Origin: Enterospora canceri
Taxonomy: Eukaryota > Microsporidia > Enterocytozoonidae
Assembly (NCBI GenBank): GCA_002087915.1
Contig: LWDP01000002.1
Coordinates: forward strand, 1-64,000
Reading direction: 5' to 3'
DNA length: 64,000 nt
Shown here: one piece after another, positions 15,851 to 64,000 of the stretch
Position numbering within the stretch: position 1 is the first letter of the stretch
Layout of the letters: every line of letters begins with the position of its first letter
The notes under the pieces: generated by a model
Databases searched by the model: none
The model's input: the letters and a program-made list of their open reading frames with translations, nothing else
What the model was told of the DNA's origin: nothing
Translations under genes and position numbers: made by a program

Positions 15851-17962
15851 TTATGATCTCATTGACTCATTCTCATTATGAATCAAATACTCTTCCTGAT
15901 CTGGTGGTTGAGCCATTTCTCTATAGAATTCCCGGGCAGCCCTCATTGCCATGTCAATGCTCAAACCCGTGTTACCCTTTTCAACGTCTTGTTGAATCCA
16001 TTTTGGTAGCAAATTCAAAATATCAAAAGTAGTGAATTTGGTGTCAGCCAACACCACCAGTCCGTAATCAAATGGTGAACGGATGATTTGTGATAGCGAT
16101 TGGGCAGTTTGACGCATTGCATCAAATGTCAGAAATTCAGTCTCATTTATACCACGACTTTCTTCCAGGAATTTCAGTTTTTCATTCAATATGACACAAT
16201 TGGTGGATAGAAATGGCACTCCAAAGACTACAGCGCATCTACCGTATCCTCCTGCAAACTCAATTCCATCCGAGGTTATTCCTCGTGCAACACAAAGCAG
16301 AATACCTCCTCTTCCTGAATCACAGGCTTCTTTGTATTTTCCAATTGCCATTGCTGTTTCCTGAATGTTTTGTGTTTCAGTAAAAATGGCCTTGTTGGCT
16401 GTGATTTCTTCTATTACGCCTGTGTTTGTCCAGGCTGATAGAATCTCATCCAAATAGCCTGAATTTGGGAAAAATACCAAAATGTTGTCTGGAACAGTCT
16501 TGGACAAATTGAGCAGCAAAATGCCATAGTTTCGCACTATTGCTGGATCAATATGTTTCTTTTTATCAGAAACCAACACATCATCCATCGCAAACCTGTT
16601 TGAATCAAATGGCTTGTTTTCAATTATCATCTGATCGTCTCCCTTTGTGATTATGAGTGGTGTTACCACATTTCTGTTATGAAATCGGCCTATTCTGATG
16701 GTATTGAGTTGTGTGAAATCAAGCAATTTTGAATACATTTCTGTTGAACAGAGAGCAGTGGATGTCAGCAGAACATTTCTGAATCTGCTGAAGATGTGTT
16801 TGGTACCAACTGATGGATCATTGCAACTTAACCTGAACGTGGGATTGAATGCGTGTGTTATTGCATCATATGGCTCAAAGATCACTGAAAACTCCTTTGA
16901 ATGGAGACCAAGAAAAGTGGCTACTTTAGCAACCAGTTCCAATGAACTCATTTTGTCGTGATTGAAGTTGGCCTGGCTTTTTAGCACAGAAAGACGCTGT
17001 GAACAAAATCGTAGTTGCTTCCTTTCTATGCACACTACGTCTTCTATTTTATCAAGAAACGCATCTACGGTATCAATTGCAACGTGACTTGACTTCAACT
17101 TAGTCTTCAGGAACTCAATGAACCTTTTTATTGCACCTATCACATGCATTGGGCTTCTCATGTTTCCTGGTGTTGATTCATAGACTTCTTCATTTTTCAT
17201 CTTATTGAAATAGTATGGAATACACTCATCAACAACTCTCTCCATTCTTTCTGATCTGTACAAGTTGGATTTGTCTTTAATTCGATCTTCAAATATTTTC
17301 AAGGCACTTCTTGCTTCTTCCAATACTCTACGTGTGATTTGTATGCTCATTGACTCCACACACTTGTTATCTATGTTTTGTGCCTGATCAAATATTACTA
17401 TGCTATCTTCTTGTAATTTGCATGATATTAGTGAATATATTCCTATATCAATCAAACAATCGGATGTGAATATAATACAATCACACACTTCTAGAACACT
17501 TTGCATCATTGTTGAATTGATTTGTTCATTTTTGTGTTTGTTATTTTTCAGGTCACAGAAATTGTAGATCCCGTGTGATATTTCCTGATTGCTCTCTGTC
17601 TCATTGTGCTTGTATTTCCTCATTGCATCTCCATCAGCACACATTCCCGTGAAGTTTGTTTCTATAAATTGATCCATATACTCAATTTGCCTTTTTATCG
17701 ACTTATAAACATCATCCAATTCCACCTTGGAATTCAAACAGTAAATGATTTTACGATTCTTATTCTGCTTTTTCTGCCAAATTGCATATGAAACTGTACA
17801 GGCAATTAATGCATCTGTCTTACCAGTACTTGGTGGTATTTCAATAAGCGTGTGTCCTGGATTTTCTATTGAATTGAGTATTCCTTCCATGTATTGCCTC
17901 TGTTCTGGTTGTATTTTATCAAATGGGAAATAGATCGGGGTGTTTTTGATTTCACAAATCAT
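15851..17962 (-). CDS. RAD3: XPD/Rad3-family TFIIH subunit with degenerate helicase motifs
   Basis: A 703-residue protein, close to XPD in length and colinear with it: IPPSTGKT at 42-49, HGIYNFCDLK, FDQAQNID at 191-198, SVEVARG-like CVARGITSDGIEFAGGYGR, and DYGLVVLADTKF. Key residues are changed. The DEAH box reads DQAQ. Motif VI, normally QxxGRxIR, reads QSLSQIIR. The region that should hold the four iron-sulfur cysteines has few of them. In TFIIH, XPD's ATPase/helicase is needed for nucleotide excision repair but its structural role suffices for transcription, so this copy may be structural only. The ATG at 17962 follows GGCCCCA. It shares a 9-base promoter gap with the next gene. Confidence 0.85.
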   Translation of the reverse strand: MICEIKNTPIYFPFDKIQPEQRQYMEGILNSIENPGHTLIEIPPSTGKTDALIACTVSYAIWQKKQNKNRKIIYCLNSKVELDDVYKSIKRQIEYMDQFIETNFTGMCADGDAMRKYKHNETESNQEISHGIYNFCDLKNNKHKNEQINSTMMQSVLEVCDCIIFTSDCLIDIGIYSLISCKLQEDSIVIFDQAQNIDNKCVESMSIQITRRVLEEARSALKIFEDRIKDKSNLYRSERMERVVDECIPYYFNKMKNEEVYESTPGNMRSPMHVIGAIKRFIEFLKTKLKSSHVAIDTVDAFLDKIEDVVCIERKQLRFCSQRLSVLKSQANFNHDKMSSLELVAKVATFLGLHSKEFSVIFEPYDAITHAFNPTFRLSCNDPSVGTKHIFSRFRNVLLTSTALCSTEMYSKLLDFTQLNTIRIGRFHNRNVVTPLIITKGDDQMIIENKPFDSNRFAMDDVLVSDKKKHIDPAIVRNYGILLLNLSKTVPDNILVFFPNSGYLDEILSAWTNTGVIEEITANKAIFTETQNIQETAMAIGKYKEACDSGRGGILLCVARGITSDGIEFAGGYGRCAVVFGVPFLSTNCVILNEKLKFLEESRGINETEFLTFDAMRQTAQSLSQIIRSPFDYGLVVLADTKFTTFDILNLLPKWIQQDVEKGNTGLSIDMAMRAAREFYREMAQPPDQEEYLIHNENESMRS

Positions 17963-19143: not shown

Positions 19144-19620
19144 TTACAAGCAATTTTCTATTATTTCGTGCAAATTGGTGTTCTCAAATGCAGCATGGAC
19201 TCGCTCCTCGTCATTGAGCTGTTTGTTGTAGATTTCTTCCTGTGAATGCGAGTTCTCTGTGATTTTCAGTCGTATCATAAATCCATCTACGTGTTTGTAC
19301 AGTTTGTAGGCCAAAGTCAGCCCTATGATTCCCACCAGACTGCAGTGTGGGACTGTTGGAGTGAATTCAACCTCAATGCATCGTGTAATCCCAATATCAT
19401 TGATCAACACCTCTCTTTCTTCATTTAGATCCACTATTCTCACTTTCTCCAAATCAACTACGTTCAACTGCTCAAGCGTGTAGGGGTGTTCTGGGTCCTT
19501 GATGTCTCTAATCAACTCAAAAATGCTCTCTTCTGTCACCTCTACCATTTTACCGTCTTTCATCCTCATTTCCACTCTCCTACTTCTCCCATCGCGAACT
19601 GTTGGATTTAAGTTGTCCAT
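19144..19620 (-). CDS. CIA2: Cytosolic iron-sulfur assembly factor Cia2 (MIP18/FAM96)
   Basis: A 158-residue protein with the MIP18 signatures IRDIKDPEHPYTLEQLNVV and VEFTPTVPHCSLVGIIGL; the latter holds the reactive cysteine of the family. Cia2 joins Cia1 and Met18 to deliver Fe-S clusters to nuclear and cytosolic apoproteins. The ATG at 19620 carries the CACCCCAA signal; an upstream GTG extension to 19635 is rejected. It converges on eL42 with an 8-base gap. Confidence 0.92.
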   Translation of the reverse strand: MDNLNPTVRDGRSRRVEMRMKDGKMVEVTEESIFELIRDIKDPEHPYTLEQLNVVDLEKVRIVDLNEEREVLINDIGITRCIEVEFTPTVPHCSLVGIIGLTLAYKLYKHVDGFMIRLKITENSHSQEEIYNKQLNDEERVHAAFENTNLHEIIENCL

Positions 19621-26294: not shown

Positions 26295-26855
26295 TTATTT
26301 AAAGGGGCGTCTGAAGATGTCGATGCACGCTGCTGCCTTGGCTGCGCCGAAGCCAGGCAGCGCAATGAGGTCGGACTGGTCCGCGTTAATGAATTCCCTA
26401 AGGGAACTGAATTCAGTTTGAACTGTTTTCTGGTTGCCTGAAGACAGAAATGGGAGATCAGCCAGAAATGAATTGGATTCCGTCTGGGTTCGTCTGGTTT
26501 CAATGGGTCTCTTGGCAGCCTGGTCGAGGCTTCTGACGTAGCTGGCGCACTCCTCGTTGTTTCTACCAAGCACAATTGTGGCTGAAACTGTTTTGTACAA
26601 ATTGAGCAGCATTTCATTGAAATCAGGCACATTCACCAGAATGATAAGAATCACCAGTTTGTGATCTCTGACTTTTCTCATTCTGCTGAAGATGTAATCA
26701 GGTTTCTCAGAATGATATTTGAGACTCAGAAACAGCACAGCTGTGGTGCCATTTACCTCAAAATCACTTCTAATGTCGTTATCATAAATCCAGTTGGTTT
26801 GACCAAGATATTTCATGACAGCATTTTTGGCCTGTCTTCTGTGTATTTTTATCAT
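26295..26855 (-). CDS. RAD10: ERCC1/Rad10, noncatalytic partner of XPF nuclease
   Basis: A 186-residue protein. The central domain shows the ERCC1 pattern: RRQAKNAVMKYLGQTNWIY, DFEVNGTTAVLFLSLKYHSE, PDYIFSRMRK. A C-terminal helix-hairpin-helix follows (LIALPGFGAAKAAACIDIF) and ends RRPFK. ERCC1 binds DNA for the XPF cut 5' to lesions. The start ATG follows TTTTGCCCT. XPF itself begins at 62891 in the same window. Confidence 0.85.
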   Translation of the reverse strand: MIKIHRRQAKNAVMKYLGQTNWIYDNDIRSDFEVNGTTAVLFLSLKYHSEKPDYIFSRMRKVRDHKLVILIILVNVPDFNEMLLNLYKTVSATIVLGRNNEECASYVRSLDQAAKRPIETRRTQTESNSFLADLPFLSSGNQKTVQTEFSSLREFINADQSDLIALPGFGAAKAAACIDIFRRPFK

Positions 26856-60863: not shown

Positions 60864-61688
60864 TCAAATGGATTTGTCCAGGTATTTCTTGAAGATGTGC
60901 AGCTGATATACGCCGGCATACTGGCCAAACATCTCAATCCATTGCTTCTGTACTGTCTTGTATCTTCTAGGAGTCAGTTTATCATCAGGTAAATTAAATA
61001 GCTTTTTGGAATGTCTATGGATATGGACATCGAGTGGCACTACGTCAAAGTACTCAAGTGATATGAGACAGACGCAATCAGCCACTTTTCTACCTATTCC
61101 TGTTATTTTGGTCAGCTCTGTAACAGCTCGTTCGTAGTTCTGTTGCATGAATTCTTTTGTGAAAATGTCTCTGTTTTTGGTGATGTGTTTGGCTGCTGCC
61201 GTAATGTATCGCGATCTGTATCCGAATCCATTTGCCTGTAACTCTTCTTCTATGTTGGTTAATTTTGATACATCTGGGAATTTGTATATTTTGAGTCCTT
61301 GATATTCTGTATAAGTCCCCTTGCTATGCAAATATTGTACCATTTTTGTGATTCGCCTTACATTGTTATTCTGGGAGCAAATGAACGTGAAAACTGTTGC
61401 AATGAAGTCATTTGTGAGGAATTTTAGGCCATTAATATGGTGTTCTCCTACATCCACATGATGATCTAAGTTGAAGAAGATACGTGCTGCCCTTTCTACA
61501 TTTTCATTGATTTTTTTGCAATAAATCCTGTTATCAATCTGTTTTAGTATCAGGAGAACTTCTCCTACAAACCCACAATGCTCGTTGTCTGTTGTTTTTA
61601 TGAAGTTGAATACTTGTCCACTTTGCAGTGTCACGTCCAAATCTATTTCATCACTTATTTCAATCCAGTTGCATTTTTCCTGATACAT
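60864..61688 (-). CDS. OGG1: 8-oxoguanine DNA glycosylase/AP lyase (OGG1)
   Basis: A 274-residue base-excision-repair enzyme. LQSGQVFNF opens the N-terminal domain, FTFICSQNNNVRRI follows, then GFGYRSRYI. The helix-hairpin-helix ITGIGRKVADCVCLIS holds catalytic Lys201 (canonical K249), and the catalytic Asp220 lies in VVPLDVHIHRH. All active-site residues are present. It is shorter than human OGG1 (345) with the N-terminus trimmed. Confidence 0.93.
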   Translation of the reverse strand: MYQEKCNWIEISDEIDLDVTLQSGQVFNFIKTTDNEHCGFVGEVLLILKQIDNRIYCKKINENVERAARIFFNLDHHVDVGEHHINGLKFLTNDFIATVFTFICSQNNNVRRITKMVQYLHSKGTYTEYQGLKIYKFPDVSKLTNIEEELQANGFGYRSRYITAAAKHITKNRDIFTKEFMQQNYERAVTELTKITGIGRKVADCVCLISLEYFDVVPLDVHIHRHSKKLFNLPDDKLTPRRYKTVQKQWIEMFGQYAGVYQLHIFKKYLDKSI

Positions 61689-62890: not shown

Positions 62891-64000
62891 ATGCCACATT
62901 TTTTAGAGTATGAACGAACCATTTTAGAGGAAATTAATGAAAAATCAACAGTAGTAGTCTGTGCACGTGGCATTTCAACAGATAACGTAGTTGGCGAGTT
63001 GCTGAATATGTACGCAGATGACTTCTCGCTCTGTCTGGTTCTTAATTGTGATAGAACTGAAATAAACCACTTTAAAAACACAGTATTGTCAAAAAAGAAG
63101 TTTTATGACATCACAAGGACGCAGATACATCGTAGAAAGAAGGAATATAAAGGTGGAGGTGTGTTCTTTGGGACAGCACGCTGCTTCTTGACTGATTTTG
63201 TCAACAAAAACATTCAGGTAGACAAAATTAGTACAATTTTCATTATGAATGCTCATAAAGTACGGGAACATTCATCCATTGCGTTTATACTACACATATT
63301 CAGAGAATATAACGCATTGCATCTTGTAAAAGCATTTGTAACATCTCCCTTGCAACTAACGCAGTCCATTTCTGATTTGTGTTACACGCTGCAATGCCAA
63401 ACTGTCAAGTTCTTGCCCAGGTTCAAAGAGTGTTTTAATGAATTCAAAGAGTTCAATTTTGAACACATTGGACTAAATCAGAGTACACAACTACATAGGA
63501 TTGCTGATTTAATCACAGACATGATTGATATACTCCTTCAGATTGAATTCAAATCATTACCACGAGACCTGATACCAAATTATAAGGATGCTGTCATCTG
63601 TTTGAAATATAGAGACAACAGCGACATCAGAAACTTCATTTGCTTGCTCAATTTATTGTATAACGTAGATCCACTGACATTGTACATTTTCTATGGCAAG
63701 ATGCTTTATGCACAAAATGATTTGGGCGAAAAAGGAAGCTGGGGATTCTCAGAAGTAGCCCACGAAATATTCGAAGAAATCACAAATTATGCAGAAAATG
63801 AATTCATTGACTTGAAGGACGTTAAATTCAACACGGAAGTGGATGAGGGTACATACACCTGTTCTAGCACTAATGAAGGCGAATCAGATAGAGAACATAT
63901 TCAGATTGAAGATTATTTAAGTGTTGTGGAGACACAATTCGACAAGAACAATAAATTGGAGACACTCAGAAGATTGGTACAAGAAAATAGAGAAAAAAGG
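62891..64000 (+). CDS. RAD1: XPF/Rad1 repair endonuclease, N-terminal 370 residues (runs off window)
   Basis: The partial product covers the helicase-like N-terminal part of XPF: HFLEYERTILEEINEK, STVVVCARGISTDNVVGELL, GGGVFFGTARCFLTDFV, and IMNAHKVREHSSIAFIL, all colinear with human XPF (LEYERQL, VVCARGLGADRLL, GGVIFATSR, and AHRIIESCQEAFIL). As in other XPFs, the ATPase motifs are lost. The nuclease and HhH domains are beyond 64000. Start follows ATTACCCT. Its partner ERCC1 lies at 26295-26855. Confidence 0.9.
   Translation, partial: MPHFLEYERTILEEINEKSTVVVCARGISTDNVVGELLNMYADDFSLCLVLNCDRTEINHFKNTVLSKKKFYDITRTQIHRRKKEYKGGGVFFGTARCFLTDFVNKNIQVDKISTIFIMNAHKVREHSSIAFILHIFREYNALHLVKAFVTSPLQLTQSISDLCYTLQCQTVKFLPRFKECFNEFKEFNFEHIGLNQSTQLHRIADLITDMIDILLQIEFKSLPRDLIPNYKDAVICLKYRDNSDIRNFICLLNLLYNVDPLTLYIFYGKMLYAQNDLGEKGSWGFSEVAHEIFEEITNYAENEFIDLKDVKFNTEVDEGTYTCSSTNEGESDREHIQIEDYLSVVETQFDKNNKLETLRRLVQENREKR

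Follow-up and report, generated by a model that had tools for sequence, protein, structure and literature searches.

A predicted enzyme-dead XPD in an enterocytozoonid-like microsporidian, a candidate TFIIH scaffold after probable loss of nucleotide excision repair

The XPD locus and its altered motifs

The window, i.e. the whole stretch of 64,000 nucleotides that was analysed (GC content 40.3%), is part of an assembly of 2.24 Mb in 75 contigs. On its minus strand it harbours an ATG-initiated open reading frame encoding a 703 aa orthologue of XPD/Rad3 (Table 1), at exactly the coordinates given in an earlier sequence-only reading of this DNA, which had described the protein as colinear with XPD over its length and altered in its helicase motifs. 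The neighbourhood of the gene is gene-dense and ordinary, with genes for a CTD-type phosphatase, an alpha/beta hydrolase, ribosomal protein L44 and others. Among PDB sequences human XPD was found to be the best match of the window protein (phmmer E 9.1e-125; query residues 7-97 and 128-693), with which it is indeed colinear, while FANCJ was a far weaker match (E 4.6e-22). PDB chain 8rev_A carries CHL1 as molecule name and XPD in its entry title. Pfam domains Helicase_C_2, DEAD_2 and HBB were recognized, the HBB/Arch family PF06777 with E 1.4e-7 and 31.8 bits at a cut-off of 30. The protein scored 752 bits against an XPD profile built from 50 intact XPDs, and in a tree with the other Rad3-family genes of the genome it falls among the XPDs. 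Its length is ~700 aa, compared to ~745 aa in the other microsporidian XPDs listed.

Table 1 Features of the window discussed in the text
Feature	Position	Strand	Basis
XPD/Rad3 orthologue, 703 aa, predicted enzyme-dead	15851..17962	-	ORF; PDB and Pfam matches; tree position inside XPD
Walker A (motif I), PPSTGKT, with S44P and G45S; K and T retained	17816..17836	-	column states
Shortened Fe-S domain remnant (~aa 100-160) with one aligned Cys of four	17485..17665	-	alignment, column states; model of low confidence over aa 111-130 and 141-150
Walker B (motif II), DQAQ for DEAH, aa 192-195 (GAT CAG GCA CAA)	17378..17389	-	column states
Motif III, LTSTALC, changed	16748..16768	-	column states
Motif VI, QSLSQIIR for QxxGRxxR, aa 621-628	16079..16102	-	column states
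CIA2-like Fe-S assembly gene	19147..19620	-	weak PF01883 match, 20.9 bits, below cut-off 23.5
ERCC1/Rad10, 186 aa, XPF partner	26295..26855	-	PF03834 E 1.2e-28; ORF
OGG1-like glycosylase	60864..61688	-	
XPF gene, 5' part, first 370 codons in window	62891..64000	+	one in-frame TAG, nuclease domain, outside window

Residues were compared in an alignment of 55 XPDs, using S. arboricola Rad3 numbering. The intact set comprises 50 rows and leaves out three XPDs predicted to be dead (see below), P0037, which is truncated, and P0045, which carries DESH. K48, D235, E236, H238, the four Fe-S cysteines and G667 and R668 of motif VI are present in all 50 intact XPDs. In the window protein, changes were found in Walker B (E236Q, H238Q), motif VI (G667S, R668Q), motif III (G461T, T462A, S464C, P465S) and motif Ia (R74N, T75S), and one of the four Fe-S cysteines is aligned. 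K48 and T49 of Walker A (GxGKT) are retained, the first Gly being Ser. The altered motifs, the missing cysteines and the conserved Lys-Thr had all been pointed out in the sequence-only reading, and the comparison with the 50 intact XPDs bears this out. It is predicted from these residues that the protein has no ATPase or other enzymatic activity and binds no Fe-S cluster. As judged from its sequence it is an XPD by descent, similar to XPD/Rad3/ERCC2 of TFIIH in whole-length colinearity, domain order, predicted fold and the Arg equivalent to human R722, but without Walker B, motifs Ia, III and VI and the Fe-S site. Walker B, motif VI and the four Fe-S cysteines are among the defining features of an active Rad3-family Fe-S helicase.

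At a threshold of 96% of the 50 intact rows, 175 columns count as conserved, of which the window protein has 60 changed and 115 unchanged. The same columns are changed 0, 4, 7, 8 and 12 times in five divergent complete intact XPDs, so that the motif changes in the window protein are not attributable to chance; P0037 has 30 changed columns, 25 of which are gaps from its missing N-terminus. The alignment indicates that the decay is not random but is concentrated in helicase and Fe-S columns. Among columns invariant in 50/50 rows, 29 of 57 motif/Fe-S columns were changed versus 14 of 73 others (Fisher p 0.00017, all Fisher p values taking columns as independent), and without the Fe-S columns 23 of 50 motif columns (p 0.0024). 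At the 96% cut the numbers were 33/67 versus 27/108 (p 0.0017). The motif excess without Fe-S columns was modest at looser cuts (p 0.022 at 96%, 0.036 at 90%), and non-motif columns of HD1 were also heavily altered (7/13 at the 96% cut). The motif limits used here were set by us after general definitions. Changed columns of the divergent intact XPDs P0044, P0106 and P0040 showed no motif excess.

Relatives, evolutionary rate and predicted fold

Two homologue searches, each giving the best 120 of 256 matches, resulted in a collection of 130 XPD homologues. Canonical Walker A, Walker B and motif VI were found in 125 of these, with Walker B being DEAH in 123 and DESH in two. Two of the five non-canonical sequences are fragments, P0037 carrying DEAH and motif VI and P0067 motif VI only; the remaining three are P0059, P0121 and the window protein. 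Among the matches listed the XPDs predicted to be dead are three: the window protein, P0059 (730 aa) and P0121 (728 aa). The latter two are full-length frames that are 79% identical to each other, have 60 of 80 derived states in common and show 34% identity to the window protein. Like the window protein they have lost the Fe-S cysteines, Walker B and motif VI; unlike the window protein they have lost Walker A as well (K48R). Their changes in invariant columns are likewise most frequent in motif/Fe-S columns, amounting to 40/57 versus 19/73 others in P0059 (p 5.6e-7) and 38/57 versus 19/73 in P0121 (p 6.3e-6). All three keep 74 of the 175 conserved columns, and all three carry Arg at the position of human R722. 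The cluster represented by P0121 holds 42 member sequences; its organism seems to be often sequenced.

Replacement of the Walker B Glu by Gln is a classic ATP-trapping change. The combination of E236Q with retained K48 and T49 might indicate that the window XPD binds ATP without hydrolysis and has acquired a changed active role, as a nucleotide-locked clamp or a regulator of TFIIH. However, S44P, G45S, R668Q and the motif III changes would also weaken binding, and K48 is R in P0059 and P0121, so the group does not keep nucleotide binding. We regard such a role as improbable.

The sequence-only reading had argued that close relatives with a normal DEAH would point to a paralogue or a sequencing artefact. 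Such relatives were indeed found, since the nearest ones, P0002 and P0003 (45 and 43% identity to the window protein), are intact. A paralogous origin of the window XPD does not follow, as the assembly yielded no other XPD and the dead P0059 and P0121 fall into one group with it. In the XPD tree the window protein, P0059 and P0121 are joined (95/81) beside P0002 and P0003, all adjoining Nucleospora. Judging from this tree the dead XPDs may stem from one shared loss or from two: the joining support is 95/81, but the branches are long and the alternatives, in which either the window protein (p-AU 0.156) or P0059 and P0121 (p-AU 0.063) are placed with P0002 and P0003, are not firmly rejected. When either dead branch was left out, the remaining one was still placed next to P0002/P0003. 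The changed columns of the dead XPDs overlap in 41 of 175 columns versus 27.4 expected, an overlap that does not settle the number of losses since the new state is identical in only 8 of these 41.

A second XPD, also suggested earlier, was rejected for this assembly. A protein search of the assembly revealed only two other Rad3-family genes, L002 and L003, which score 204 and 180 bits on the XPD profile versus 752 for the window protein and form a clade of their own (100/100), separate from 13 XPDs. That one of these enzymes has replaced the XPD helicase in TFIIH is very unlikely in our judgement. Both do keep DEAH, GTGK, a QxxGRxxR motif VI and cysteines upstream of DEAH, and L003 is ambiguous by its PDB matches, which are about equal for FANCJ (2.3e-31) and Rad3 (5.6e-31). 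Furthermore, the available text of an E. cuniculi survey applies the name 'XPD', on grounds of structural homology, to two additional members of the Rad3 family (PMC9053307). However, L002 is much closer to FANCJ (1.1e-86) than to XPD (2.4e-33), neither paralogue matches PF06777, the XPD HBB/Arch family, and E. cuniculi, according to the same text, holds such paralogues alongside an intact XPD (PMC9053307). A loss of the Fe-S supply in the organism was considered as well and is unlikely, as both paralogues keep the cysteines upstream of DEAH and a CIA2-like gene lies nearby. The weak PF01883 match of this gene places a candidate Fe-S assembly factor near the Fe-S-less XPD (Table 1).

In an XPB tree the window organism groups (100/99) with Ecytonucleospora hepatopenaei, P0131 and P0133, and this group adjoins Nucleospora (100/99); the organism is therefore taken to be an enterocytozoonid-like microsporidian. 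With the topology of 11 microsporidia kept fixed, the window organism and Nucleospora had XPD tip lengths of 1.35 and 0.31 and XPB tip lengths of 0.33 and 0.17, respectively. The resulting XPD/XPB ratio of 4.06 compares to 0.85-2.17 in the 10 other microsporidia, and without motif columns the ratio is 3.48 versus 0.91-2.41. It follows from these ratios that of the two proteins XPD alone has accelerated, and that the acceleration extends to non-motif columns.

The long branch and the 60 changed conserved columns could be expected from a dispensable pseudogene in decay. However, the gene has an open frame of 703 codons that starts and ends as in homologues and has stayed stop-free on a branch of ~1.3-1.9 changes per site, random codons of the same composition having a probability of 5.7e-22 of containing no stop. 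The 115 conserved columns kept, the presence of other TFIIH genes (see below) and the full-length, closely similar frames of P0059 and P0121 with their common derived states also argue against a pseudogene, and we give this explanation very little credence. An assembly error or contamination as the source of the odd motifs is more improbable still. Nothing direct speaks for it, and the in-frame TAG of the XPF gene on the same contig (see below) makes single-base errors conceivable. The XPD gene, however, shows dozens of in-frame replacements with no frameshift or stop, the independent relatives P0059 and P0121 have decayed in the same way, and the XPD and XPB trees agree in placing the organism beside Nucleospora.

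An AlphaFold2 model of the window protein was obtained with pLDDT 82.0 and pTM 0.84, confidence being low around the Fe-S remnant. Its best Foldseek matches were XPD chains in TFIIH, pre-initiation and repair complexes (the seven best with TMq 0.80-0.85), and matches of the same kind were found with a model of P0059 (pLDDT 80.8, pTM 0.81). The window model shows compatibility with the XPD fold and is not proof of it, the fold being partly expected from an input alignment of mostly intact XPDs.

TFIIH subunits and repair genes in the assembly

XPB, for which a search had been proposed in the sequence-only reading, is encoded in the assembly (contig C35, E 3.7e-113), and so are p44 (C1, E 6.3e-19), p8 (C2, E 1.0e-11) and MAT1 (C1, E 1.2e-10). 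For p52 a match was found (C40, E 6.3e-16) that is spread over two open frames. The p52 matches (L009-L011, C40:13422-14245) lie in frames of 259 and 145 aa, possibly owing to a frameshift, an intron or an assembly error. A separate p34 gene was not detected in the assembly, where PF03850 matched only the p44 gene (L007/L013, C1:29506-30162). The window XPD is predicted to be incorporated into TFIIH.

In the sequence-only reading, intact XPF and ERCC1 were thought to work outside classical repair. ERCC1 is present in the window, but the intactness of XPF is doubtful. The window contains only the first 370 codons of its gene, the remainder lying beyond it. This gene (L014, contig C14), which is the only ERCC4-domain match in the assembly, keeps the ERK nuclease motif and has a single in-frame TAG between the ERK motif and the HhH part. 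The TAG may be a sequence error or a real loss.

The search for XPG that had been proposed together with that for XPB gave no XPG match in the assembly. XPG_I (PF00867) matched only a FEN1-like gene (L005), which from its sequence we take to be FEN1, and, weakly, a gene of 485 aa (L006). The latter lacks the EAEA glutamates and shows Rad2 as best match among PDB sequences (4e-4) and a weak match to MKT1_N (E 0.098); its start is presumably Mkt1-like. From these matches L006 may be a decayed XPG. XPC and XPA gave no match in the assembly at E up to 1, nor did they in prokaryotic control genomes, which makes these negatives weaker than that for XPG. In E. cuniculi, XPG, XPC and XPA are all given as present in Table 1 of PMC1851970, and XPC of this species is detectable by Pfam according to Table 2 of PMC9053307, as far as the available parts of these papers go. 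EXO1 and MUS81 were not found in the assembly either, XPG_I matching only the two genes mentioned (FEN1-like and Mkt1-like) and ERCC4 only one; both enzymes have been reported in E. cuniculi in the available text of PMC1851970. An OGG1-like glycosylase gene in the window (Table 1) indicates that parts of base excision repair persist.

With no XPG, and with no match for XPC or XPA (for which the prokaryotic control genomes gave none either), this gene content makes loss of the repair pathway better supported than an XPF-ERCC1 working outside repair, and nucleotide excision repair (NER) has probably been lost in the cell. A comparable case is the enterocytozoonid microsporidian Enterospora, for which the available text of Wiredu-Boakye et al. 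(2025; PMC12134460) describes absence of all core NER proteins as probable genuine loss and urges follow-up. ERCC2/XPD does not occur in its main text (0 occurrences; PMC12134460). The presence of genes for p8, known best for its part in repair, and for ERCC1 speaks against NER loss in the window organism, and the assembly may be incomplete.

XPD as a candidate scaffold for transcription

The role of XPD in TFIIH has been dissected with engineered mutants. XPD variants K48R and C134S were found to fail in repair while supporting transcription, whereas R722W, which breaks p44 binding, abolished both repair and transcription; it was concluded that XPD serves as a scaffold in transcription (Kuper et al. 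2014; PMC4182028, available text). With motor and Fe-S site gone and frame and R722 kept, the window protein fits this split between repair and transcription (Kuper et al. 2014). As in the engineered K48R and C134S proteins, helicase activity is predicted to be absent and TFIIH would still transcribe, but the window case is natural and fixed in a genome, with many sites altered together.

We propose, with a probability of roughly three in four, that the only XPD detected in this organism is an enzyme-dead, Fe-S-free scaffold of TFIIH that serves transcription after loss of NER. That an enzyme-dead XPD is retained as a structural part of TFIIH had been put forward in the sequence-only reading, and it remains the supported reading, predicted from sequence. 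The proposed course of events would start with the loss of NER in the lineage, XPG and other repair factors having gone. Selection on the helicase motifs and the Fe-S domain would then have stopped, and both would have decayed. The binding frame would have stayed under selection, since TFIIH would need XPD physically for transcription initiation. In this scaffold the Arch domain and helicase domain 2 would join p44 and MAT1/kinase, and initiation would run on the XPB translocase. A point on the other side is the presence of K48 and T49, with which ATP binding may persist.

A wider version of this proposal, which we favour with less confidence, extends it to an enterocytozoonid clade. NER would have been lost in this clade and TFIIH would be a transcription-only complex containing an Fe-S-free pseudohelicase XPD. 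The window protein, with Walker A kept, would then represent an early stage of decay, and P0059 and P0121, with Walker A gone, a late one.

Searches of the openly licensed full-text literature, judged mostly from listings, gave no earlier description of an XPD that is enzyme-dead in nature. The key motor residues are invariant in 50/50 intact XPDs, and work with laboratory mutants points to repair as the sole task of the motor. If the proposal is true, a natural lineage without the motor but with the scaffold would confirm, under selection, the scaffold role of XPD in transcription, and would constitute a natural test over evolutionary time that no enzymatic activity of XPD is needed for transcription. 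It would also reveal the XPD surfaces on which TFIIH truly depends and would link the decay of XPD to the loss of NER in a parasite group. Structural work would gain a minimal TFIIH, and a dead XPD could serve as a marker for further repair-less eukaryotes.
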